The translations under genes and the position numbers were made by a program. 49,009 nt of DNA from a virus, in the IMG/VR virus record IMGVR_UViG_3300020171_002237, positions 1 through 49,009 of that record. The stretch is one strand, 5' to 3'. Every line of letters begins with the position of its first letter. Position 1 is the first letter of the stretch. Under the pieces are notes generated by a model that saw only the letters and a list, made by a program, of their open reading frames with translations, had not been told where the DNA came from and did not search any database. Of this stretch, positions 5,247-46,527 are shown one piece after another.

Positions 5247-6337
5247 GGCGACTGCTCCGTCATCAACTCAGGCACCACCCGATCAGCCACCACCGCCCGA
5301 AAAGCTTGCGTGTGGTCGTAGCTCACCACGGTGTAGGTGGTGTACGTGGAAACCCTGCCAAACGAATATGCACCGGTAGCCGCTTCGCTCCATGTCTCAC
5401 GGATAACGGCACGAGTGGATTCCTCGATCAGCAGAACACGCCGCCGCACTGGTGTGGCTGGTGTGTTTTTGACGGTGCCCACCACCTGGCCGACACCACC
5501 GAAGTAGATGTCGTGGTGGCCCAAGATCGGAACCAGCGCTTTATTGCGAACTCCCAGTCCATCGAGCGCCTGCATTGGTGCGGTGTTGATGCGCCCAGTG
5601 TTGTCACCCAGACCTTGTGTTGCCAGATTGACCGTTGGAATGGTGTTCACCCGACTCAGGTCAGTGCCGTACCCATGAAAAACCACAGGTGGCCCCACCA
5701 CAGCCAGGCGAACCTGAGCTTCCAGGTCTTGCAGATCGGTCAGGCTGGCAACTCCGTCGAACATGCCCAGTGCCGATAAATTTGCATACATGCCCCAGGA
5801 TGAGGGCCAATTGGAGCCAACACTGGAGAGCAAGCTCAGTGGCACGGAGAACTTCGCTCCCACCCAAGTTCCGTTGCAGTAATACTGGTAGCCACTGGCA
5901 TCAAAAGCGATGGCGACGAACTTGACCGCTGCCCCTGTGGGCAGTCCGACCGAGTTTGCCGAGCCTTCGCAGCGAATTTGCCCATGTGGGCTCAGTGTCG
6001 TGACATCTGTCTCAATCAGCAGTGCATGGAAGTTGCCAGCCACCCCGTAATCAGAAAACAGCATCACCCGTGGATTGACGTGACTCACCAGCGCCATCAG
6101 CACGCCAGAAGTCGGACGAGTCACCCGTTGGTAGATCCAGCCAGCACCCACCCCTTTGACGCAGGTGATGGATTGAATGGGGTTGGTTCCTACCACCACC
6201 AGACTGGCTGACTGGCCCGCCATGTCCGCATGGTTACCGCCACCTGTCAAATCGGTCAAAACCGAGTTCGACTCGAAATGTGAGGAGTCATACGCAATAA
6301 TCGGGGTCAACCCCGGAGCACTTGTCCACCAGTTCAT
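5243..6337 (-). CDS. tail protein with LamG/concanavalin-like domain
   Basis: 364 residues. Residues ~15-215 look like a concanavalin/LamG jelly roll (opening YDSSHFES..LTDLTGGGNHADM; later VKFVAIAFDASGYQYYCNGTWVG). This fold commonly binds carbohydrate. The C-terminal ~90 residues (VGTVKNTPATPVRRRVLLIEESTRAVIRETWS...GAYSFGRVSTYTTYTVVSYD) match the short carboxypeptidase-regulatory-like / FN3-like beta sandwich found at the end of many phage tail-tip proteins. Inference: part of the receptor-contacting tail tip. Coupled to the 135-aa gene by ATGA. Confidence 0.65.
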   Translation of the reverse strand: MNWWTSAPGLTPIIAYDSSHFESNSVLTDLTGGGNHADMAGQSASLVVVGTNPIQSITCVKGVGAGWIYQRVTRPTSGVLMALVSHVNPRVMLFSDYGVAGNFHALLIETDVTTLSPHGQIRCEGSANSVGLPTGAAVKFVAIAFDASGYQYYCNGTWVGAKFSVPLSLLSSVGSNWPSSWGMYANLSALGMFDGVASLTDLQDLEAQVRLAVVGPPVVFHGYGTDLSRVNTIPTVNLATQGLGDNTGRINTAPMQALDGLGVRNKALVPILGHHDIYFGGVGQVVGTVKNTPATPVRRRVLLIEESTRAVIRETWSEAATGAYSFGRVSTYTTYTVVSYDHTQAFRAVVADRVVPELMTEQSP

Positions 6338-7665: not shown

Positions 7666-10600
7666 TCAGGGGCGATCCACATCGCCACGCGACAGCAAAG
7701 TGAAGGAGTGCTGGATGCCTGTGTTGGGTCCTTGCTGGATGGTTCGCACCACCCACACCGGTGTCATTGCACCGACGGTGTTAAAGCGCAGCATGTTTCC
7801 CGCCGCCCAGCCGATGCCCCAGCCCAATGCAGGAACCTTGAAGTACGGTGTGTTGGTAGCAGGGTTGTTGGGGCTCAAATCGGTGTTGGTGCTGCCAATG
7901 GCAATGACCCCGACGTGCTCACCAATGACGTTAAAACTCGTGGTGTTGGTGAACACCAGTGCCCAGCGTTCACTGACTGCGCCCTTGTTGGTCACCACAA
8001 TCGGTGCCAGCACGTCGTTGAACGTACCCGTGGCCGCCGTGCCGCTGACACCGTCAAGCCAGGTGGTGCCGTTCCAGGTCGCCTGATCGAACAGCACAGA
8101 CACCCGTGCTTTGAGGTCGCCAGCGACCAACGCGCTCGAGACAAAGCTGCTGGGTGGACTGGTGACGGGATAGTCATGCGTCAGTGGCCGCGTGAAGGTC
8201 AACTCGCCACTGATCTGCACATCACTGACCACCGCCATGTCTTCCACCCGGTGCTCTATTCGCACGGGCTGGCTGTAACCAGCCACCGCTGTGAAGGTCA
8301 CCATTCCGGCTTCCAAATCAACTGAGTAACCGGCGTTGATGACATTGCCATCAAACCCGACCACCCGAACCCTACTCAAACGCACGCGTGCGCAGTTGAT
8401 GGTCTGACCGTTGGCGACAGTCGCCGTGATGGATTGGGTATTGCCCACCACCGCAAAACCGCCCGGCCGAAAGATCGGCACGCGCCCGTCGCTGGGCAAG
8501 CGTACCGGGTCAATGCCGAGGATATTGGCATCCAGTGGCAGATAGCTGTAGGCCACGGCTGCATAACGAATGGAGTCGGCCATGACGGCGGAAGCCACAA
8601 AGATATGCCCACCGATGATTTTGGACGCGTCATACCAGGACTTGGTCTCATTGCCAGCGGCTAACTCCCATTTGCCAAAGGCCAGCGACACAATGCCGGT
8701 CTCATAGTCCACCTTGCCTGTGACGTTGGCCGACTCAATCTTGCCGTTGGCATCCGATGTGACGATGTGCGAGACCTGAGCGTCGTCGTCAGCCAGCACA
8801 AACTGCACCGCCAGACTGGACGGACGAATGGGTGCCGTGCTGGTTCTGAATTGCACGTCAGTCACCGGCATCGGACTCTGACTGGTCACCATGCTGGTGA
8901 TTACCCCCGAATTCGTCGCACCCACTGGCAGCACGGTCAGACTTGCCATGCCGGTCGAGTAGTTGATGCTGCCCGAGGTCAACCCTGAACCGGTCGCCGG
9001 ATCGATGTTGGTAATCAGCGAGCCCTGACGATCAATAAAACGTGTACCACCCAGTGTGAAGCTGCACGACCCGCCCACAATGGGCTCACTTGAGCTTTGC
9101 GTCAGATCGACCGCAAGCTTCACCGGAAACACCTCGGTGTTGGTGTTGCCAGCAGCGCTGGTGCGGTAAGTGACCTTGACATACCCGGACATGTCGGTGG
9201 GCATGATGGCCCCGATGGTCTGGTAGATGAAGCCGCCAAAGACCGTTTTCTCAGTAGCCAGGGTGCCGGTGTACCAAGCGTTGTCAATCACTTGGGTGCC
9301 GATGACCACCTTTGTCCAGTTGGGCTTGGGCAGTGCAATCACAGTATCTGGCTTGAAACTCAAAGTGCCAGCGGCGTAATTGATCACACCTGCGCACTCA
9401 GGACGCGTTTGAAATCCGCCAGCACCGTTGTCATGGACGATGACGATGGGGTCGACGCGGGGTTTGTAGGTCAGCGAGAGCCAGCGGGTCGAAATCTGGC
9501 CCTCAATGGTCAGGTCTTTCTCGTCATACACCGTGTTCCACTCAACCTTGACGGTGCGCGCCAGCACGTTGGGGTTGGCCAGAACGATCTCGATGTGACC
9601 GTCGGGCGCGAAACGCTCGGGTGCCTGGAAACTCTCTTCAATCGGCGCTCCCCACGAGTATTCAATGCCGACCTGTGCGCCAGAGCTGGGCAGGATCAAT
9701 GGTTTGAAGGTGATCACGCCATCCAGATAATCCACTTTTCCAGTGGCGTCCCCAGTGAGCAGCCCCTGTCCGTTGTCAGTGGCGGTTTTATTCACGCCAC
9801 CTGTCACCCAGGTCAGCGTGACCGTGCTTGGCGCCACGCCAGGGTGGGCCAGAGTGAATACGGATTGGGCGGCAATGGCAACACCATAAACAGCCGTGTC
9901 GGCAGTGGCCAGCCCATAGGTGGCGAGCACCTGGGTACCCGCATCGGGCAAGGCAGCAAGGGTGACCATCATCGATCCGGTATTGAAATTGAGCGTGCCA
10001 GCGCCCACCGAGCCAAAGGCACTGCGCAACTGGCCGTTACCCGCATCACGCAGGGTGTACCAACGGCCCTGGGCGCGATAACTCAGTGCAAAACTGCCCG
10101 GTTTTGGCGCAGGATCAAAGATCGCCACCAAGGTGCTGGAGCGCGATTCGGCTGTGACCGCCCAACTGGCGGTGTGAAGTGAACGCACCGGTGTTGCAGC
10201 CGGTGTGTAGATGATCGTTTTAGCCCCGGCGTAGCTCACTGCGGGATCGGTGATTGAAATCAGCCCATTGGCGTAATCCACCGCACCTACTGCGCTGCCC
10301 GCAGCAGACAACAGGCCGCCATCGTCGACCAATGTCAAGCTGCCTGTGGTCAGTTTGAGCGTATTGGGCATGATGGCCTGACCCACGCTGATGGTGTGAG
10401 AGGTGTTGAGTGCCACCGATGTCGTGATCGTTAACGGCCCGCCCGCAGCAGACAAAACCACCTGTTCACCGTTGGGTTTCAGATCAACCAGTGGTGTTTC
10501 AGTCTGGGCACTCGGCACCAACTGCGTATAGACGCTGCTGGCGCGAATGCTGAATGTCCCAAGATTGGCGGCAGCGGCCAGCGGCACCACGCCCACATAG

Positions 10601-29376: not shown

Positions 29377-29588
29377 CGCACTCGCCGGGCCTCAAACGCC
29401 CGGCGCAGCAAGTAGCTGCGCGCCAGCGACACACCCGTAAAGATCAATCCGATCATCAGGTTCTGCGACAAGGTCGCATGCAGTCCAAACAGCGGGAACA
29501 CCAAATACTGAGTAGTGACAGCCACGATGTAGCCCACCAGCACGTTGGCCACCGACTCCACCAGGGACATCCAGCGCGACTGCATCAT
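29322..29588 (-). CDS. DUF7220-like small membrane protein
   Basis: 88 residues (87 if the second ATG at 29585 is used). SRWMSLVESVANVLVGYIVAVTTQYLVFPLFGL...LSQNLMIGLIFTGVSLARSYLLRRAFEARR fits the DUF7220 pattern: two transmembrane segments and a short positive tail. The start overlaps the methyltransferase stop. The C-terminal 18 codons run antisense to the end of the 121-aa gene. Function unknown. Confidence 0.75.
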   Translation of the reverse strand: MMQSRWMSLVESVANVLVGYIVAVTTQYLVFPLFGLHATLSQNLMIGLIFTGVSLARSYLLRRAFEARRVRQAKSSSSMAACTTNPVK

Positions 29589-30880
29589 GATTGACCCTGA
29601 TCATTTTGGCTATCGTCGCCAGTATCCCCGACGACAACTCCGGCCAAATTGTTGAAGCCAACGCCATCGCACTCGCGACTGGCGAGTTTCTCGGTCCAGT
29701 CTTGCCAGCGCCGGACAATCACGTCGACATACTTCGGATCGAGTTCCATCAGGCGCGCCGTGCGGCCTGACTTTTCTGCGGCGATCAGGGTCGTGCCGGA
29801 TCCGCCAAAGGGGTCGAGCACCACGTCACCGGGCTTGCTGGAGTTACGAATCGCACGCTCCACCAGCTCGACCGGCTTCATGGTCGGGTGCAAATCATTC
29901 TTGTGGGGCTTTTTGATCTGCCATACGTCACTCTGGTCCCGGTCGCCACACCAGTGGTGCTTGCCGCCTTCCGGCCAGCCGTACAGAATGGGTTCGTACT
30001 GGCGCTGGTAGTCTGAGCGACCCATGGTGAAGGTGTTCTTGGCCCAGATGATGAAGGTCGACCACTTGCCACCGGCCTCGCGAAACGCCGCTTGCAGCAC
30101 GTCGAGTTCACTTGACGACATGGCCACGTAGACCGCGCCCGTACAGTTGGCCATGATGGGTGTGAGGGCCGCCAGCAGGAAGTCATAAAACCCGTCGCCC
30201 AGGTTGTCGTTGAGGATGGCGCGGTCTTTACCGCGCATCTTGTCCTTGGCGCTGTTGGCATAGTTGACGTTGTACGGCGGGTCGGTGACCGTCATGTCCA
30301 CCTCTTTGCCTTGCAGCAACTGCTCGTAGCACTTGACATCGGTGGCATCACCACACAGAACGCGGTGGCCACCGAGCAGCCACACGTCGCCTGGGCGCGA
30401 GATAACTGACTCCTGCGACTCGGGTACCTCATCGTCACCGGTTTGGCCCGTGTCGCCTTCGTCGCCCTCGAACAGGTCGGCCAGTGCGTCCGCATCAAAG
30501 CCGGTGAGCGACAAATCGAAATCGTCATCGCGCAGTGCATCAAGTTCTACCCGCAGCATTGCATCGTCCCAGCCTGCGTTTTCAGCAATGCGGTTGTCTG
30601 CAATGATCAGGGCTCGGCGCTGGGTGGGCGTCAGATGGTCGAGCACGACCACCGGCACGACTTCCAGTCCGAGTTTCTGTGCCGCCGTCAGTCTGCCGTG
30701 GCCCGCCACGATGATGCCGTCACTGCCAGCCAGAATAGGGTTGGTAAAGCCAAACTCAACGATGGACGCAGCGATTTGAGCGACTTGATCTTCCGAATGG
30801 GTGCGCGCATTTCTGGCGTATGGCAGCAGTTTGCCGGTTGGCCACTGCTCGATTTTGTTGGCCAGCCAGGATGCGGTCAT
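29585..30880 (-). CDS. ParB-domain DNA methyltransferase 1 (beta-class, DPPY)
   Basis: 431 residues from ATG 30880; a longer open frame to 31102 overlaps the upstream gene and has no matching domain. An N-terminal ParB/Spo0J-type domain (NARTHSEDQVAQIAASIVEFGFTNPIL, VAGHGRLTAAQKLGL, IADNRIAENAGWD) spans ~1-130. After an acidic linker comes the methyltransferase with motif IV DPPY at 200-203 and the SAM-binding DPFGGSGTT near 356-364. That order is beta class. Likely adenine-N6 or cytosine-N4 transfer; the target is unknown and no restriction partner is seen. Coupled to the upstream methyltransferase gene by ATGA. Confidence 0.9.
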   Translation of the reverse strand: MTASWLANKIEQWPTGKLLPYARNARTHSEDQVAQIAASIVEFGFTNPILAGSDGIIVAGHGRLTAAQKLGLEVVPVVVLDHLTPTQRRALIIADNRIAENAGWDDAMLRVELDALRDDDFDLSLTGFDADALADLFEGDEGDTGQTGDDEVPESQESVISRPGDVWLLGGHRVLCGDATDVKCYEQLLQGKEVDMTVTDPPYNVNYANSAKDKMRGKDRAILNDNLGDGFYDFLLAALTPIMANCTGAVYVAMSSSELDVLQAAFREAGGKWSTFIIWAKNTFTMGRSDYQRQYEPILYGWPEGGKHHWCGDRDQSDVWQIKKPHKNDLHPTMKPVELVERAIRNSSKPGDVVLDPFGGSGTTLIAAEKSGRTARLMELDPKYVDVIVRRWQDWTEKLASRECDGVGFNNLAGVVVGDTGDDSQNDQGQS

Positions 30881-32346
30881 GGATTTACCTCTGCGGATTC
30901 GTTTGATTGGGTTGCTGGCGCGAGTCGCTCTGCGGCGACCGCCTTGAAGGTCTGGCCGGTCGCTGCGAGCGTCACCGGCACATCGGGGAAGTTTTGCTGG
31001 AAGCGAATGACGGCCACGTCCACATACTGCGGCGCGATCTCCACCAGTCGGCACTGGCGACCACTGCGCTGCGCTGCCAGCATGGTTGTGCCGCTGCCGC
31101 AAAAGGGTTCGAACACAATGTCACCGGCGTCCGAATACGCTTCCAGCACGAACTGGGGCAGTGCCACCGGAAACACGGCCGGGTGATCGATGTCCTGCCC
31201 GATCTTGCCCTTGTGGCGCATGATGCGAATCACCGAGTCAGCAATTTTGGTGTCTTGGGTGAGCGTGCCAACGTGGTTCCACGAGGTTTTGCTGCCATCT
31301 TTGTTGCGCATGCCACCGGCGCTGGTGCCGTCACCACGCAGATGGGTGTCACGTCCAGCGTAGATGCAGGGAACGTTCTTGTTGGGTCTGCGCACCTCGG
31401 AGTCCTTGCGATTGAAGTGAAACACGAACTCGAACGCTGGCGCAAAGCGACCACTCCAGTCACCCGGCAGGCCCGGGCCTTGGTCCCAAACGTACCAGCC
31501 AAAGCGCCGCCAACCCTGCTGGCGCATCCAGGACAGCCAGCCATCCCAGTACGGGACAACTTCCTGCTCGCGGTGGATCAGCCCCAAGTTGACCAGCACT
31601 TGGCCGGTTGCAGCCATGGGCAGGTTCGCGAAGACCGAACGCATCAGCGCGTCCCAATCAACAATGGTGTCGGTGTAGTCGCGCTGGGTACCATAGGGCG
31701 GCGAGGTGAAACACAGCGCAGCCTTTTCAGATTGCATCAAAGCAGCGATCACCGCCGGGTCACCGGCATCACCACAGATCAGACGGTGTGCGCCAAGCTG
31801 CCAGACATCACCAGTTCGCGATACCGGATTGACTGGCGCGTCTGGAACTTCGTCACCTGCGTCTGGGGCATCGTCGGATTTGTCATCGCCTGCCGGGTCG
31901 TCGCCGGTCTCGCCATCAATGTGTTCGGCCATCATGGCTTCGATCTCGGCATCCTCAAAACCAGTGAGCGCCAGGTCGTAACCGGACTCACACAGCTCAG
32001 TGAGTTCAAGGGCCAGCATCTCTTCGTCCCACCCGGCATCGAGTGACAGGCGGTTGTCAGCGATCACATAGGCGCGCTTTTGGGTGGGCGACAGGTGCCC
32101 CAGTTCAATGACCGGAACCTCCGTCAAGCCCAACTTGCGGGCAGCAGCCAGACGACCGTGCCCGGCGATCACGCCGCAGACACCGTCGACCAGCACCGGA
32201 TTTGTCCAGCCAAACTCGGCGATGCTGGCTGCGATCTTGGCCACCTGCTCCTCGCTGTGGGTACGTGGGTTACGGGCAAACGGGATCAGCGCGTCAACCT
32301 TGCGGTACTCGACGTTGAGGGGATTCAAGGGTTTGGAGCTTTCCAA
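30877..32346 (-). CDS. ParB-domain DNA methyltransferase 2 (beta-class, SPPY)
   Basis: 489 residues from a TTG at 32346; a second TTG at 32328 with GGAAAG upstream may be the true start. The N-terminal domain is closely similar to that of methyltransferase 1 (RTHSEEQVAKIAASIAEFGWTNP, GHGRLAAARKLGLTEVPV). The catalytic half differs: motif IV is SPPY at 215-218, as in cytosine-N4 enzymes, and the SAM motif EPFCGSGTT is near the C-terminus. Beta-class order. The TTG start directly behind a terminator-like hairpin suggests weak or regulated expression. Confidence 0.88.
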   Translation of the reverse strand: MESSKPLNPLNVEYRKVDALIPFARNPRTHSEEQVAKIAASIAEFGWTNPVLVDGVCGVIAGHGRLAAARKLGLTEVPVIELGHLSPTQKRAYVIADNRLSLDAGWDEEMLALELTELCESGYDLALTGFEDAEIEAMMAEHIDGETGDDPAGDDKSDDAPDAGDEVPDAPVNPVSRTGDVWQLGAHRLICGDAGDPAVIAALMQSEKAALCFTSPPYGTQRDYTDTIVDWDALMRSVFANLPMAATGQVLVNLGLIHREQEVVPYWDGWLSWMRQQGWRRFGWYVWDQGPGLPGDWSGRFAPAFEFVFHFNRKDSEVRRPNKNVPCIYAGRDTHLRGDGTSAGGMRNKDGSKTSWNHVGTLTQDTKIADSVIRIMRHKGKIGQDIDHPAVFPVALPQFVLEAYSDAGDIVFEPFCGSGTTMLAAQRSGRQCRLVEIAPQYVDVAVIRFQQNFPDVPVTLAATGQTFKAVAAERLAPATQSNESAEVNP

Positions 32347-41752: not shown

Positions 41753-42016
41753 TCATTGGTAAACCGAAGTGAAGGTGGAGTGGCGCGAAACACGGCGCTC
41801 GTATGCTTCGATCTCAGAGATGAGGTACGTGACCCGGGCACCCATCTTGCAAAAAATGGGTCCGAGTTTTTCTTGCCGCCATCGGCGCAGGGTTTTGACT
41901 GAAAGACCCCAGCGCTGGGACAACTCGCGTTCGTCAAGGGCAAGCCGCAAGACAGCGGCGTAGTGTGATTTGACGGGGGGCTGTCCCGTCTGATCGGTGG
42001 TGAAGTGGCGTTGCAT
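41753..42016 (-). CDS. small HTH (excisionase-like) protein, first gene of the early operon
   Basis: 87 residues from ATG 42016; the frame continues to 42061 but the better ribosome site (GGAG, 8-nt spacing) serves 42016. LALDERELSQRWGLSVKTLRRWRQEKLGPIFCKMGARVTYLISEIEAYERRV is a HTH_17/AlpA-type winged helix. Its ribosome site lies in the loop of a 9-bp hairpin, and four TCCGGA sites lie just upstream. It may bind those sites itself (inference). Confidence 0.75.
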   Translation of the reverse strand: MQRHFTTDQTGQPPVKSHYAAVLRLALDERELSQRWGLSVKTLRRWRQEKLGPIFCKMGARVTYLISEIEAYERRVSRHSTFTSVYQ

Positions 42017-42051
42017 AAGAAGTGCTCCATTGGTTGAAAAGCCACTTCTTA
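42016..42051 (-). promoter_or_regulatory. hairpin enclosing the ribosome binding site of the early operon
   Basis: On the minus strand, TAAGAAGTG (42051-42043) pairs perfectly with CACTTCTTA (42024-42016). The loop holds GGAG, and the last base of the right arm is the A of the start ATG. Could expose or hide the start site. Seen directly; the effect is inferred. Confidence 0.6.
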
Positions 42052-42066
42052 TTGTTCGCACCGACC

Positions 42067-42107
42067 TCCGGATGACCTCCGGATGGACTTCCGGATAAAC
42101 CTCCGGA
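42067..42107. promoter_or_regulatory. four-site TCCGGA operator array, one helical turn apart
   Basis: TCCGGA occurs at 42067, 42078, 42090 and 42102, i.e. 11, 12 and 12 bp apart. Each is in a wider ACCTCCGGAT-type context on the plus strand. The array is 15 bp beyond the leader hairpin of the early operon and 12 bp from the end of the 306-aa gene. Sites on one helix face fit a cooperatively binding regulator or replication iterons. Confidence 0.7.
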
Positions 42108-42118
42108 AAAGCTGTATA

Positions 42119-43039
42119 TCAGCTCACGCGGAGGCGATATTTCCCAAACGCCACGCGCTCAATCCATGCCTGCCATTCACCTTTTCCAAAAACAGAATCT
42201 GGATCCTTGCCGCAGTCCGTGCTTGATCGAACCTCCGACCATTTGAGGCTGAGTTGATGACGCTCTCGCCAAAACAGTGCAATCACTGATTTTTGGTATT
42301 CGCCTGTGAAAGTCTTTTCAGTCGCCATGCACCGCAGCTTGAGCACGCCGGTCAACTCGTTGTACCGGTCACGGTCATCAGTGGCATCAGCTGGCACGCC
42401 GCGCAGCATGCGATCCAGCACGTCGCTTTTGAGAGTGACCACGTTGGTTACATCCGTTAGCAAGGCATCCAGCTCGCGCACCTGGTGATGATTTGGCAGA
42501 TTTGTGCTTGTTTTGGAATCAGTCACCAGCACTATGCCGTGACTAGACCTCTCAAGATCACGAAGATTTTGATCCCACTCCATGGGGCACATTTTTGAAC
42601 GGCGAGAAACGTACAGCGGGACAAAACGACTTGAGCCACTGACGCGCAGGTCACCCAGATGCCACAGATGGCCCTGGATCAGCTCGCGACGCCAGGCAAC
42701 TTTGGATGGCTCAATGCAAAACAGGGTAGATATTTCGTCCAGCCATGCATCAACGTTGATGGTAAAAATCGTGATTTCAGCGAGAGGGCGAGTAACAATT
42801 GTTGTCAGTCCGCCCAAACGGCAGTAGCTGTAAGTTTTAGTTTTTTCGTCAACTTCAACATCAGCTTCGTCTTCGCCATCGAGAACTTGAACCGGTATGG
42901 TTGACAAATATCCGTCTTCAAGAATCCAGCGACGACTCAGGAATTGTTTAGTTTGCCCCATCAGCTGGTTTGACATGACAGGCTTATCAAGCTGACTGAC
43001 TCGCTCCAGCGTGCGCAAATAATCGGAGTGCAGGGTCAT
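42119..43039 (-). CDS. unknown protein of the XRE/ImmA cassette, 306 aa
   Basis: Starts MTLHSDYLRTLERVSQLDKPVM (GAGGTG upstream). Alpha/beta, acidic N-terminal half (VLDGEDEADVEVDEKTKTYSYCRLGG), a middle LYVSRRSKMCPMEWDQNLRDLERSSHGIVLVTDSKTS that resembles a Rossmann-type strand-helix, and a positively charged C-terminus (RVAFGKYRLRVS). No known catalytic motif could be assigned. 8 bp after the 465-aa gene; the last gene of the cassette. Confidence 0.55.
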   Translation of the reverse strand: MTLHSDYLRTLERVSQLDKPVMSNQLMGQTKQFLSRRWILEDGYLSTIPVQVLDGEDEADVEVDEKTKTYSYCRLGGLTTIVTRPLAEITIFTINVDAWLDEISTLFCIEPSKVAWRRELIQGHLWHLGDLRVSGSSRFVPLYVSRRSKMCPMEWDQNLRDLERSSHGIVLVTDSKTSTNLPNHHQVRELDALLTDVTNVVTLKSDVLDRMLRGVPADATDDRDRYNELTGVLKLRCMATEKTFTGEYQKSVIALFWRERHQLSLKWSEVRSSTDCGKDPDSVFGKGEWQAWIERVAFGKYRLRVS

Positions 43040-43047
43040 GTTGCACC

Positions 43048-44445
43048 TCAGTACTGGCGCGCACAGCCAAGACTCATCAACTGGGCAAAAACCAATTCCG
43101 TGTCTGCTTTGGTCTTGCCGGAATCGTTGAAGCCGTTTGGGGCAGTGATTTGCGCAGAGACGTTGTGCGCCCTGCGTTGCGAAGATTTCGAGACGACCAT
43201 GCGCAGCTTGACCTGGGTAATGACATATGCCGTGAGGTCTTCTGACAGATCATCTTTGGCCCGGGCGTAGATGTCGCGGTCTTCCCAGCGATGCAGACGA
43301 ATGACCAGAGAATTTTCAACCAATCGCTGGACTGACTTACCCTTGAACTGAACCATTTTCATTTCCGGCCGTGTCACCACCAAGTGCTGGATCGAGATTT
43401 CATCAATGCCAGCGATCCTGTTTTTTTTGAAGCGATCCAGCATGGCCGGAGTGGAAAAACCCATCAAGTCAAATTCGCGAACCGGCATCGATTCAATGGA
43501 ACCATTGCCGCCTAGCACAACATCTCGAAATATGGCTGCCAACTGCGGGCGAATGGGTATGTCATCACAGAACACAGACAACGTTCCCTTGACCGGCTGC
43601 CATGAATATTTCACGTTTGTGATCACGGGAATTTCGGAATCAATCACCTGTCCCGTTCCCATCCGGACCCAGTTATATCTGCCTCCATCGAAATTTATGC
43701 TCAACAAGTACTGAACTATGGGCTGCTCAGGCTGACTAAAGTCACGTTGTTCAAAGTGCTCGACCAACATATCCTCAGCATTGACGTTGCCAAACAGATC
43801 TGCCAGTCGTTGCTTCAGTGAGACTTCAAGCGAATCATCCAATTTCGGGGTCACACCTTTTGGGCCAAGATAATGGCTTGACTGATTTTCACTTTTCGAG
43901 CGCTGAATTATTTCCTTGCGTTCTTCGGCATGATCGAAGCGACCAGGCTGACTGGTCTTGGCTTGCCAATACTCCTGCTGGAGAAACAGATACAGCGCTT
44001 TGCTGAATTTGTCAGTTGACGTTTGAAGCAGAGATGGCTCTTTGAAGTCATCGTCCACCAGCAACTCTCCGACGGCCAGTGCACCGTATTCGTCACACAT
44101 GAGGCCAACTCGTTCTGACGCGTCCTCAATCTCGTTTTGGGTGGGCACTGGCATTGCCGCGACTTCTGCGAAAACTGCGTTTCGCGATGCAATGGGCATG
44201 GAGCCTGCTGCTCCGTTTATCAGTGCCGCAGTGATGGGCACTGGACTTTTGCTGGCACTCTCGAGCAGCGAGCGAATCAACTCGGTGGAGTGGACCTTGC
44301 GCACCAGCTGGATAAAGTGCTCCATGGTCGGTAATGTTTGCGGGCCCATGTCGACTTGCCGTGGCTTTGTCGATCTTGTTTTCGGCTGCTTCTCCGCAAC
44401 TGGTGGTGATTGTTTTTTAACGACGTTCTGCTCGACTGCTGACAT
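43048..44445 (-). CDS. unknown protein of the XRE/ImmA cassette, 465 aa
   Basis: Starts at ATG 44445 with AAGGAG 7 nt upstream; the frame to 44517 has no such site. Low-complexity basic N-terminus (about 1-45), helical region (MEHFIQLVRKVHSTELIRSLLESASK), a middle DGGRYNWVRMGTGQVID-type beta part, and near residue 360 MLDRFKKNRIAGIDEISIQHLVV. No membrane segment, no nucleotide or nuclease motif recognised. Role unknown; its position links it to the peptidase-regulator pair. Confidence 0.55.
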   Translation of the reverse strand: MSAVEQNVVKKQSPPVAEKQPKTRSTKPRQVDMGPQTLPTMEHFIQLVRKVHSTELIRSLLESASKSPVPITAALINGAAGSMPIASRNAVFAEVAAMPVPTQNEIEDASERVGLMCDEYGALAVGELLVDDDFKEPSLLQTSTDKFSKALYLFLQQEYWQAKTSQPGRFDHAEERKEIIQRSKSENQSSHYLGPKGVTPKLDDSLEVSLKQRLADLFGNVNAEDMLVEHFEQRDFSQPEQPIVQYLLSINFDGGRYNWVRMGTGQVIDSEIPVITNVKYSWQPVKGTLSVFCDDIPIRPQLAAIFRDVVLGGNGSIESMPVREFDLMGFSTPAMLDRFKKNRIAGIDEISIQHLVVTRPEMKMVQFKGKSVQRLVENSLVIRLHRWEDRDIYARAKDDLSEDLTAYVITQVKLRMVVSKSSQRRAHNVSAQITAPNGFNDSGKTKADTELVFAQLMSLGCARQY

Positions 44446-44548
44446 GGGCTTGCTCCTTGGTTTGATAGATGCGCGATTGCGTGACAGGTTAATAGATGTT
44501 TTCAAAAAAACCGACACAAGGTCGGCGGCTCCATACTGATCTCAACGA

Positions 44549-45373
44549 TCAGTAATTCTTGACTCCAGGCTTGAGGAGTCCATATCGATCCATGCGAACA
44601 CGGATAAATCTCGGTGTCACGCCGAAGCGCGTAGCCAGTGCCTTTAGCAACGGATCCATACCGTCAAAACCAAAGATGCTCTTGGCTGACAGGGTCATGC
44701 CCATGCCTGGAAAATCTAGATCGAGAGATGGACTACGCGTGATCGTCACGCTGTATTGCTCGGCCAAATCTTCGACTGCACGCATCAGGTGCTGGCGCGG
44801 CACCAGCAGTGAACCCATGAATTCATTGGCACGAAACTCCGCAAAACGAACGCTTGCCTCGTGCGCAGTGTTGCCTACATTGGGAGATTTGGCCAAATGC
44901 TCAGCATTTGGTGTCGAGGTGCGATAGGCTTTATGCGCGGTGAGTGCGGGCTCATCGAACAGTCCCGCACCTTGGGCTGCTTCATAAATCCAACCTGGTG
45001 CTTCAAAAACTGCATGCCCAAGTTCGTGGGCAAAAGTGCTCAAAACCAATTCAATCGAAGCAATTTCGCAAACTGGTGTGACCAAGAGCAGCGCAGCATC
45101 CTTTGACCCTTCGGGGTCAAACTCACAAACGCCCAAAACCGCGCAGCCCGACTCATCTTTAACTGGGTGATCGGTATCGACCCATAACTCGTATGGGATG
45201 CCATTGACCTTCATGTTGTCAATGGCACCCAGTATTTCGAGCGTTAAAGCATCGGTGTCATCACTGATCAATTGCTGGCGCGCTTGCAGTGCAATATTGG
45301 CAACTTGGGTGTGCTTGACGTAGGCAGGAAAATAGCGGTCGCAGTGCTGGTAGCTGAGCGTTAGTAACGACAT
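44549..45373 (-). CDS. ImmA/IrrE-type zinc metallopeptidase
   Basis: 274 residues, starts MSLLTLSYQHCDRYFPAY. Zinc site HELGH at 116-120 in STFAHELGHAVFEAP, with the downstream EFRANEFMGSLLVP near 179-192 matching the family ExxANxFAxxLLxP third-ligand region. In ICEBs1, ImmA cleaves the XRE repressor ImmR. Here it is encoded directly after the XRE gene, so that protein is its likely substrate. The C-terminal ~80 residues (SAKSIFGFDGMDPLLKALATRFGVTPRFIRVRMDRYGLL) hold a second HTH-like end. Confidence 0.85.
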   Translation of the reverse strand: MSLLTLSYQHCDRYFPAYVKHTQVANIALQARQQLISDDTDALTLEILGAIDNMKVNGIPYELWVDTDHPVKDESGCAVLGVCEFDPEGSKDAALLLVTPVCEIASIELVLSTFAHELGHAVFEAPGWIYEAAQGAGLFDEPALTAHKAYRTSTPNAEHLAKSPNVGNTAHEASVRFAEFRANEFMGSLLVPRQHLMRAVEDLAEQYSVTITRSPSLDLDFPGMGMTLSAKSIFGFDGMDPLLKALATRFGVTPRFIRVRMDRYGLLKPGVKNY

Positions 45374-45652
45374 TCACTTCTCCGCCTGCGACTGCTTGCG
45401 GTACATCCGCACGACGTTGCCAACCTCTGTCTGCAAGTCCGGCGGCAAGCGGCTTGCTTCAATGAATGCATCATCAACGCTCACGCCTAAAATTTCAGCG
45501 GCCTTGATGATCAGTTCGTCTTTGGGGGCATTTTCTCTGTCGCGCTCAATGCGTGACCAGTAGGCAGGCGAAATCTCGAGCAGACGGGCAAAGTCGTTCA
45601 TTTGCATGCCCTTTGCCTCTCGATGATTTCGTATGAATGCTCCGAAGCTCAT
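45374..45652 (-). CDS. XRE-family HTH regulator
   Basis: 92 residues. GAFIRNHREAKGMQMNDFARLLEISPAYWSRIERDRENAPKDELIIKAAEILGV is a complete Cro/CI HTH domain, with a short helical tail. Adjacent to the ImmA-like peptidase gene, so it is probably the cassette repressor; it is also the best candidate in the window for a prophage-level repressor, since no separate CI-like gene was found. Confidence 0.88.
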   Translation of the reverse strand: MSFGAFIRNHREAKGMQMNDFARLLEISPAYWSRIERDRENAPKDELIIKAAEILGVSVDDAFIEASRLPPDLQTEVGNVVRMYRKQSQAEK

Positions 45653-45688
45653 GGTGTTATTTAAGTTGCGCGATTAGTTAATTTGACA

Positions 45689-45722
45689 ACTATACCGCAA
45701 ACGTCTGTCTTTTTGTGCAGAC
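45689..45722 (-). promoter_or_regulatory. possible promoter and dyad upstream of the XRE gene
   Basis: TATAGT (minus strand, 45694-45689) could be a -10 box for the XRE gene. An inverted repeat GTCTG/CAGAC (45703-45707, 45718-45722) lies just upstream, where a self-binding repressor could sit. No good -35 box is visible, so confidence is low. Confidence 0.3.
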
Positions 45723-45737
45723 TGGGAAAATTTAACG

Positions 45738-46016
45738 TCAGTGAATTTTTGGCAGGTCTGCGCGCAAGCGATCCCGAAAAGCACGCATGATGACCATGCT
45801 CGCCTCATCGGGCTCGGTCTCACCCGTGGCCTTGAGCAACTGGTCGTTGCCAGCATAAAAGCCCATGTGGTTGCGAATCCAAACGCCCAATCCAAAGTGC
45901 AGCGCGTAAATGTCTTCGCTGTCCATGGCCGCGATCTTGGTCTGCTCGGATTCCTCCACCATGCTCAGGAGCAGGCGCACCGCAGCATCCACCGTGGTTG
46001 GAAATTCATTCGCCAT
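45738..46016 (-). CDS. DUF6794 domain protein
   Basis: 92 residues from ATG 46016 (GAAAGGG upstream). FPTTVDAAVRLLLSMVEESEQTKIAAMDSEDIYALHFGLGVWIRNHMGFYAGNDQLL is the DUF6794 pattern. Function unknown; small accessory protein of phages and plasmids. Overlaps the end of the nuclease gene by 11 bp. Confidence 0.8.
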   Translation of the reverse strand: MANEFPTTVDAAVRLLLSMVEESEQTKIAAMDSEDIYALHFGLGVWIRNHMGFYAGNDQLLKATGETEPDEASMVIMRAFRDRLRADLPKIH

Positions 46017-46527
46017 GGTCACCCTTTCGCCAGTCCCAAGGCGCAATGGGTGACTTGTCTCCCCAAAGACCCTGGTGGCGCGACTGTGCGCCCAGTTCCG
46101 CCTTTTCATACTTGGGTAGGTCATCTGCAGGCTGTTCCTTGGCGTACTTGCGGTACCACCAAGCCAGACCGGCGCTCACCTGACTCAAGCCTGCATCGAA
46201 CGTCCTGGAACAAGCACTTGAGCAGTTGGGCGACGCCACCAGCACTTTGCCAACGATACGTTTGTACCGATCAAGCTTTGTCCACTCAATGTCGACCTCT
46301 TTGTCGAAAACCAGTCGTGACAGGTTTTCCTTCGACACCTGACCGAATGCCTGCTTTTTTTCGGGCGCATCAATTCCGGCGACCCGAATCTTGTGCTGTA
46401 CCTTTGCGGCATCAAGCACTGTGATGGTGTCGCCATCAGTGACGCCGACAACATGGCCGGTCAGCACCTCAGCATTGACTGGGCAAAAGGCCACGCTCAG
46501 CGCCAGCGCAAATCCAAAAATCCTCAT
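46006..46527 (-). CDS. secreted thermonuclease (SNase fold)
   Basis: 173 residues. An N-terminal signal peptide (MRIFGFALALSVAFCPVNA) is followed by the SNase OB fold: VTDGDTITVLD, KIRVAGIDAPEKKQAFG (the Arg and Glu of the active site) and DRYKRIVGKVL, then GLAWWYRKYA. A Ca-dependent DNA/RNA hydrolase expected outside the cytoplasm. Common as phage and ICE cargo; not part of the phage replication cycle in an obvious way. Confidence 0.88.
   Translation of the reverse strand: MRIFGFALALSVAFCPVNAEVLTGHVVGVTDGDTITVLDAAKVQHKIRVAGIDAPEKKQAFGQVSKENLSRLVFDKEVDIEWTKLDRYKRIVGKVLVASPNCSSACSRTFDAGLSQVSAGLAWWYRKYAKEQPADDLPKYEKAELGAQSRHQGLWGDKSPIAPWDWRKGDHGE

Follow-up and report, generated by a model that had tools for sequence, protein, structure and literature searches.

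A candidate induction switch in a tailed phage: an XRE-ImmA pair beside a probable two-protein activator of the early operon

Genes and relatives

The window, by which we mean the whole 49,009-bp stretch of DNA analysed, carries terminase, portal, head, tape measure, and endolysin genes and therefore belongs to a tailed phage. Four consecutive minus-strand genes, lying exactly where a sequence-only reading had placed them, adjoin the early operon:

45374-45652, minus: XRE repressor gene, 92 aa (HTH_31, CapH-like match, conservation)
44549-45373, minus: ImmA/IrrE-like metallopeptidase gene, 274 aa (HELGH, weak M78 match, phrog_87)
43048-44445, minus: P465, 465 aa, body subunit of the proposed activator (no library match, AlphaFold)
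42119-43039, minus: P306, 306 aa, DNA-reading subunit of the proposed activator (AlphaFold, no library match)
41753-42016, minus: first early-operon gene, excisionase/AlpA-like HTH, the proposed target (phrog_66, 1e-6)

The XRE protein matched HTH_31 in Pfam (E value, 3e-13; 50 bits; cut-off, 27) and a CapH-like model in PADLOC (8e-7), and an XRE-type protein is conserved in 45 open reading frames (ORFs). The ImmA gene is contiguous with the XRE gene and encodes an HExxH motif read from the sequence as HELGH. Its match to Peptidase_M78 was weak (16.3 bits, below the cut-off of 22), fused XRE-ImmA relatives exceeded that cut-off (47 bits), and PHROGs returned the phrog_87 metallo-protease (9e-4); tblastn of ImmA against phages and plasmids found no match. 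For P465, the mechanically called ORF begins at an outer GTG (489 aa), the conserved start being the ATG at 44445, and 8 bp separate P465 from P306. The first early gene starts, by conservation, at the ATG at 42014-42016.

No usable match to P465 or P306 was found in Pfam, PHROGs, NCBIfam, PADLOC, or PDB sequences, nor by tblastn for P465 against phages and plasmids or for P306 against plasmids. The earlier description of both proteins as unassignable thus holds for sequence libraries, and its suspicion of an undescribed element is borne out in that the two form a protein family without a library match.

The relatives compared were 80 viral contigs retrieved using the serine integrase of the window as query; P465 as the sole query of the viral contigs gave no match. 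One contig of a Rhodoferax metagenome-assembled genome (MAG; L082) matched the window at 100% identity in P465 and in every other control or early gene that was compared. All four proteins are kept, in unchanged order, in dozens of other contigs, so the four ORFs are more than chance, and the same XRE-ImmA-P465-P306 quartet occurs in about half of the 80 contigs. Iterated profiles and profile-profile alignment identified P465 and P306 as colinear halves of a protein of about 750 aa, which is found fused in 28 contigs. Split or fused, a gene of this family is present in all 66 related contigs that span both flanks, with the same early operon alongside, and P465-P306 is therefore core and not cargo; the proposal that the quartet is a cargo module is not supported. 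The split pair adjoins the same early operon in Comamonas, Stenotrophomonas, Xanthomonas, Nitrospira, Stutzerimonas, and other genomes. When 300 Burkholderiales genomes were searched with a profile, six matched; three of the six are remote relatives that reside in prophages of the same kind and have XRE-ImmA running divergently from P465-P306. A related integrase was looked for near three genomic loci (L115, L116, and L118) and not found.

A 1,347-aa ORF caught by the iterated P465 profile was rejected as the tape-measure gene. In L045 the P465 frame continues into a 1,536-aa ORF (a chimera or deletion), which is probably how the tape measure was drawn in.

Several neighbouring genes were recorded separately. 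Between XRE and the integrase block (45738-46527), DUF6794 and staphylococcal-nuclease genes are present in few relatives only, and this insert is more likely than the quartet to be cargo. Two overlapping, mutually related ParB/DNA-methyltransferase fusion genes lie at 29585-32346. In L115, an AbiH-like gene (by inspection; oriented positions 7700-8605) directly upstream of XRE is likely cargo with a defence role, located at the end of the prophage.

Operator-like sites and terminator

Three features mark the intergenic regions of the quartet:

45666-45681, minus: operator-like site at the XRE promoter, TTAACTAATCGCGCAA (conserved in 67 upstream sequences; scan)
44500-44526, minus: intrinsic terminator between ImmA and P465, GCCGACCTTGTGTCGGT plus T run (conserved in 41 distinct gaps; also delimited as 44510-44526)
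44477-44492, minus: second operator-like site, between the terminator and the P465 start, TTAACCTGTCACGCAA (scan, gap alignment)

The 67 distinct XRE-upstream sequences share a promoter type, TTGAC-N17-TAYGAT, which in most of them is flanked by inverted copies of the TTAACNAATCRCGCAA site. In the window, the -10 element (TATAGT, 45689-45694) is followed immediately by the clear downstream copy; the inverted copy upstream of -35 is not clear. The second site lies about 1.2 kb beyond the first and is present in 41 distinct gap sequences. A scan for the operator-like site at the early promoter, where XRE sites had been expected, found none. From their position these are probably XRE sites, and their placement suggests that XRE controls both its own genes and P465-P306; the terminator would insulate the latter pair in the lysogen. 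In three relatives (L072, L112, and L113), XRE is retained, ImmA was not detected, and the XRE-promoter site is altered.

The idea that the regulator-peptidase pair looks like a self-regulated switch is supported. The description of the quartet as one cassette stands in the sense of a single functional set; in arrangement it is two two-gene units, XRE-ImmA and P465-P306, parted by the conserved terminator and operator-like site.

Exchangeable inputs and LexA boxes

Upstream of the core, 31 of the 66 spanning contigs carry split XRE and ImmA, 16 carry an XRE-ImmA fusion together with a PIN-like protein, 1 has only XRE, and 18 have other inputs, which include HTH plus PIN_3 in opposite orientation, four LexA-box loci, and a remote variant (L021). 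The HTH (153 aa) and PIN_3 pair precedes a fused 750-aa gene in L014, L055, L018, and others, in opposite orientation, and is flanked by the first early gene and DUF2924 as a toxin-antitoxin-like input cassette. In L037, a PIN-like protein (5776-6297; by inspection, no Pfam match) lies between fused XRE-ImmA and a 757-aa gene.

Five P465-P306 loci lack both XRE and ImmA (L003, L005, L008, and L009, plus L089 from the genome scan). In each, a LexA-type box immediately precedes P465, and three of these boxes are perfect CTGT-N8-ACAG; XRE-bearing loci have none within 150 bp of P465, allowing up to one mismatch. Seven AT-rich LexA-type boxes occur in 436 kb of this region, five of which are those of the XRE/ImmA-less loci. 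Since identity to the window's P465 is 45% for L089 and 29 to 32% for the other four, at least two lineages are represented. The lexA promoters of Rhodoferax, the window's host included, carry CTGTATTTTTAATCAG or CTGTATTTTTAACCAG, the variant being as in L003 and L005. The window's XRE promoter has a one-mismatch LexA-like site of its own (45705-45720), which L102 does not share and which was taken as chance.

Repeat array, early promoter, and leader

Four direct repeats (offsets, 0/12/24/35 bp) occupy the gap that separates P306 from the first early gene, and the P306 gene ends in the segment proposed to read them:

42122-42376, minus: P306 C-terminal winged helix, residues 222-306, proposed reader head (model, repeat-class tracking)
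42102-42107, minus: repeat 1, TCCGGA
42090-42095, minus: repeat 2, TCCGGA
42078-42083, minus: repeat 3, TCCGGA
42067-42072, minus: repeat 4, TCCGGA
42051-42056, minus: weak -10-like AACAAT, putative promoter (read from aligned gaps)
42015-42052, minus: leader hairpin ending at the ATG of the first early gene (arm co-variation)

Within the window, TCCGGA clusters at this site only, 56 bp upstream of the first early gene. Repeat 4 lies 54 to 57 bp from the early ATG across several repeat classes (gaps scored at about 25 bp had an inner ATG picked), and the 0/12/24/35 spacing is constant across TCCGGA, CCATAA, CCGTA, and TGCCAAA classes despite the changed sequence. Fused class B has 11-11-bp steps instead of 12-12-11. 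The remote E-type has CCCGTACA at 0, 12, and 35 with a degenerate third site, an assignment made by eye whose automated score was not clearly above shuffles. In aligned gaps the -10-like element follows repeat 4 by 10 bp, and no -35 element was seen.

Among 60 distinct P306 proteins, repeat type correlated with the last 85 residues (r = 0.79) more strongly than with the first 215 (r = 0.55). P306 of L076 and L099 is 95% identical in its N terminus and 49% in its C terminus, with CCATAA and CCGTA repeats, respectively; taking this pair with L033/L109, the N termini are 88 to 95% identical, the C termini 46 to 49%, and the repeats differ, and L033/L051 shows the reverse of the L033/L109 pattern. 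The L076/L099 gaps are identical again right after repeat 4, which argues that head and repeats move together. Because the repeats directly follow the stop codon of P306, this co-inheritance is partly linkage; the fixed repeat geometry does not follow from linkage.

The leader hairpin is conserved in most related phages. Its arms co-vary: over 19 leaders, pairing with the locus's own arm scored 8.7 against 5.3 with arms of other loci (0 of 2,000 permutations), permutation being used since a single alignment of all leaders mis-registers the two loop lengths. The hairpin may act in RNA/translational control or may be a DNA palindrome or second operator.

Predicted structures

The AlphaFold model of P306 (pLDDT, 86.5) has two winged-helix-like ends. 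Residues 222-306 aligned with CovR (Z, 6.4) and ToxR (Z, 6.0) over about 80 residues, modest values below the level called clear, so that resemblance to an OmpR/ToxR-type winged helix is a lead; Foldseek of the P306 model against the PDB gave no match at an E value of ≤0.001. For P465 (pLDDT, 75.4), residues 187-465 gave modest Z values of 6 to 8 with VIA and matched phage RdgC-like models in BFVD, a lead towards tandem TBP/RdgC-type domains. A receiver domain was looked for in Pfam matches of P306 and P465 and not found.

Proposed switch and alternatives

The preferred reading, which we consider probable from the sequence patterns above, is that the quartet is a temperate-phage induction switch in which P465-P306 activates the early operon through the four repeats. 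In the lysogen, XRE would repress its own promoter and, with the terminator and second operator, keep P465-P306 off. ImmA, once activated (probably by single-stranded DNA [ssDNA]), would remove XRE, presumably by cleavage, and transcription could then reach P465-P306. The two proteins are predicted to form a complex that binds the 12-12-11 repeats directly through the winged-helix head of P306 and, where a -35 is missing, would recruit RNA polymerase to the excision/recombination/replication operon. We infer activation, rather than another effect, because SOS or ImmA must raise P465-P306 and the early promoter has no -35; P465-P306 is thus probably an activator.

Repression of the early operon by P465-P306, as a lysogenic repressor or a Cro-like late shut-off, is improbable. 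Repeats beside the early promoter could occlude polymerase, but that promoter offers no -35 to block. The lysogenic version is unlikely: given LexA control in five loci and two lineages, SOS would raise P465-P306, which is the wrong sign; a Cro-like late role may still apply. An SOS-induced repressor would be odd; the activator reading fits the LexA-box loci.

Slightly less probable again is a replication initiator, held off by XRE or LexA and on induction binding the repeats as origin iterons. Short direct repeats and two winged-helix-like ends of P306 recall plasmid Rep proteins, and in this model P465-P306 is induced together with the early operon; however, the fixed 54 to 57 bp from the early ATG and the 10 bp to a -10-like element are promoter-like, an AT-rich unwinding region was not noticed at the repeats, and the phage encodes its own primase-helicase.

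A cargo module for defence or superinfection exclusion, as the sequence-only reading proposed, is very doubtful: XRE/ImmA resemble CapH/CapP, and PIN domains accompany the fused relatives (Pfam PIN_3 in class C; by inspection in class B), but P465 and P306 have no PADLOC match, their family is in 66 of 66 spanning contigs rather than accessory and adjoins the early operon in the genomes seen, and both the operator-like sites and the LexA-type boxes suggest that what is controlled is the early operon of the phage itself, although XRE may incidentally confer immunity to similar phages.

Returning to the activator, a broader reading is tentative, and we put it somewhat below even: P465-P306 would represent a new activator class with a TBP/RdgC-like DNA-gripping body, an exchangeable winged-helix head reading a fixed 12-12-11 array of four sites, and a common output for varied damage sensors (XRE plus ImmA, fused XRE-ImmA with PIN, HTH plus PIN, and host LexA). 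Dormancy would then be kept by absence of the activator, with no cI-like repressor acting on the early promoter.

On the induction-switch reading, the quartet is likely the master switch of a prophage family that is widespread and mostly uncultured (Comamonas, Rhodoferax, Xanthomonas, Stenotrophomonas, Nitrospira, and others), and a function is predicted for a family of proteins that none of the searched libraries contains. Natural domain swaps predict the repeat read by each P306 head, and the exchange of an ImmA-type sensor for LexA before the same output makes what ImmA-type proteases sense testable in prophages.

Comparison with known systems

Like PhoB/OmpR, the proposed activator has a predicted winged-helix head and direct repeats about one helical turn apart. 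Repeats 3 and 4 (11 bp) are near the usual pho-box position. Unlike PhoB/OmpR, the receiver domain is absent, the head is joined to an unrelated body, and there are four sites. The P465 model (residues 188-465) aligned with RdgC (2owy; Z, 6.4 over 214 residues), a partial alignment with poor root mean square deviation; P465 differs from RdgC in having no Pfam match and a different context and partner.

An XRE gene beside a putative M78-type peptidase gene recalls ImmR-ImmA of ICEBs1 and pneumococcal prophages (PMC12637031) and PprI-DdrO (PMC10904395). Unlike in those systems, the excision promoter has no operator-like site; such sites lie instead at P465 and the XRE promoter, and an additional activator layer is inserted. 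PprI (PMC10904395) and CapP are activated by ssDNA, and a pneumococcal ImmAR prophage has been proposed to respond likewise (PMC12637031); the XRE/ImmA input and the LexA input may thus register one and the same kind of damage.

In SetR-SetCD of SXT/R391, a repressor that is removed on DNA damage holds off a two-protein activator, and SetCD is a class II activator at promoters without a recognisable -35, turning on xis/int and transfer genes (PMC4344509). No evidence of common ancestry between P465-P306 and SetC/SetD emerged from the library scans, which gave P465 and P306 no match. The switch proposed here is similarly a predicted repressor-held two-protein activator, with candidate sites near a putative promoter in which no -35 was seen; the 10 bp from the last repeat to the weak -10-like element recalls class II activation. 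It differs in that SetR is cI-like and self-cleaving, whereas here a separate ImmA-type protease, or LexA as its replacement, would relieve repression, and in having a four-site array of 12-12-11 repeats in a tailed prophage.
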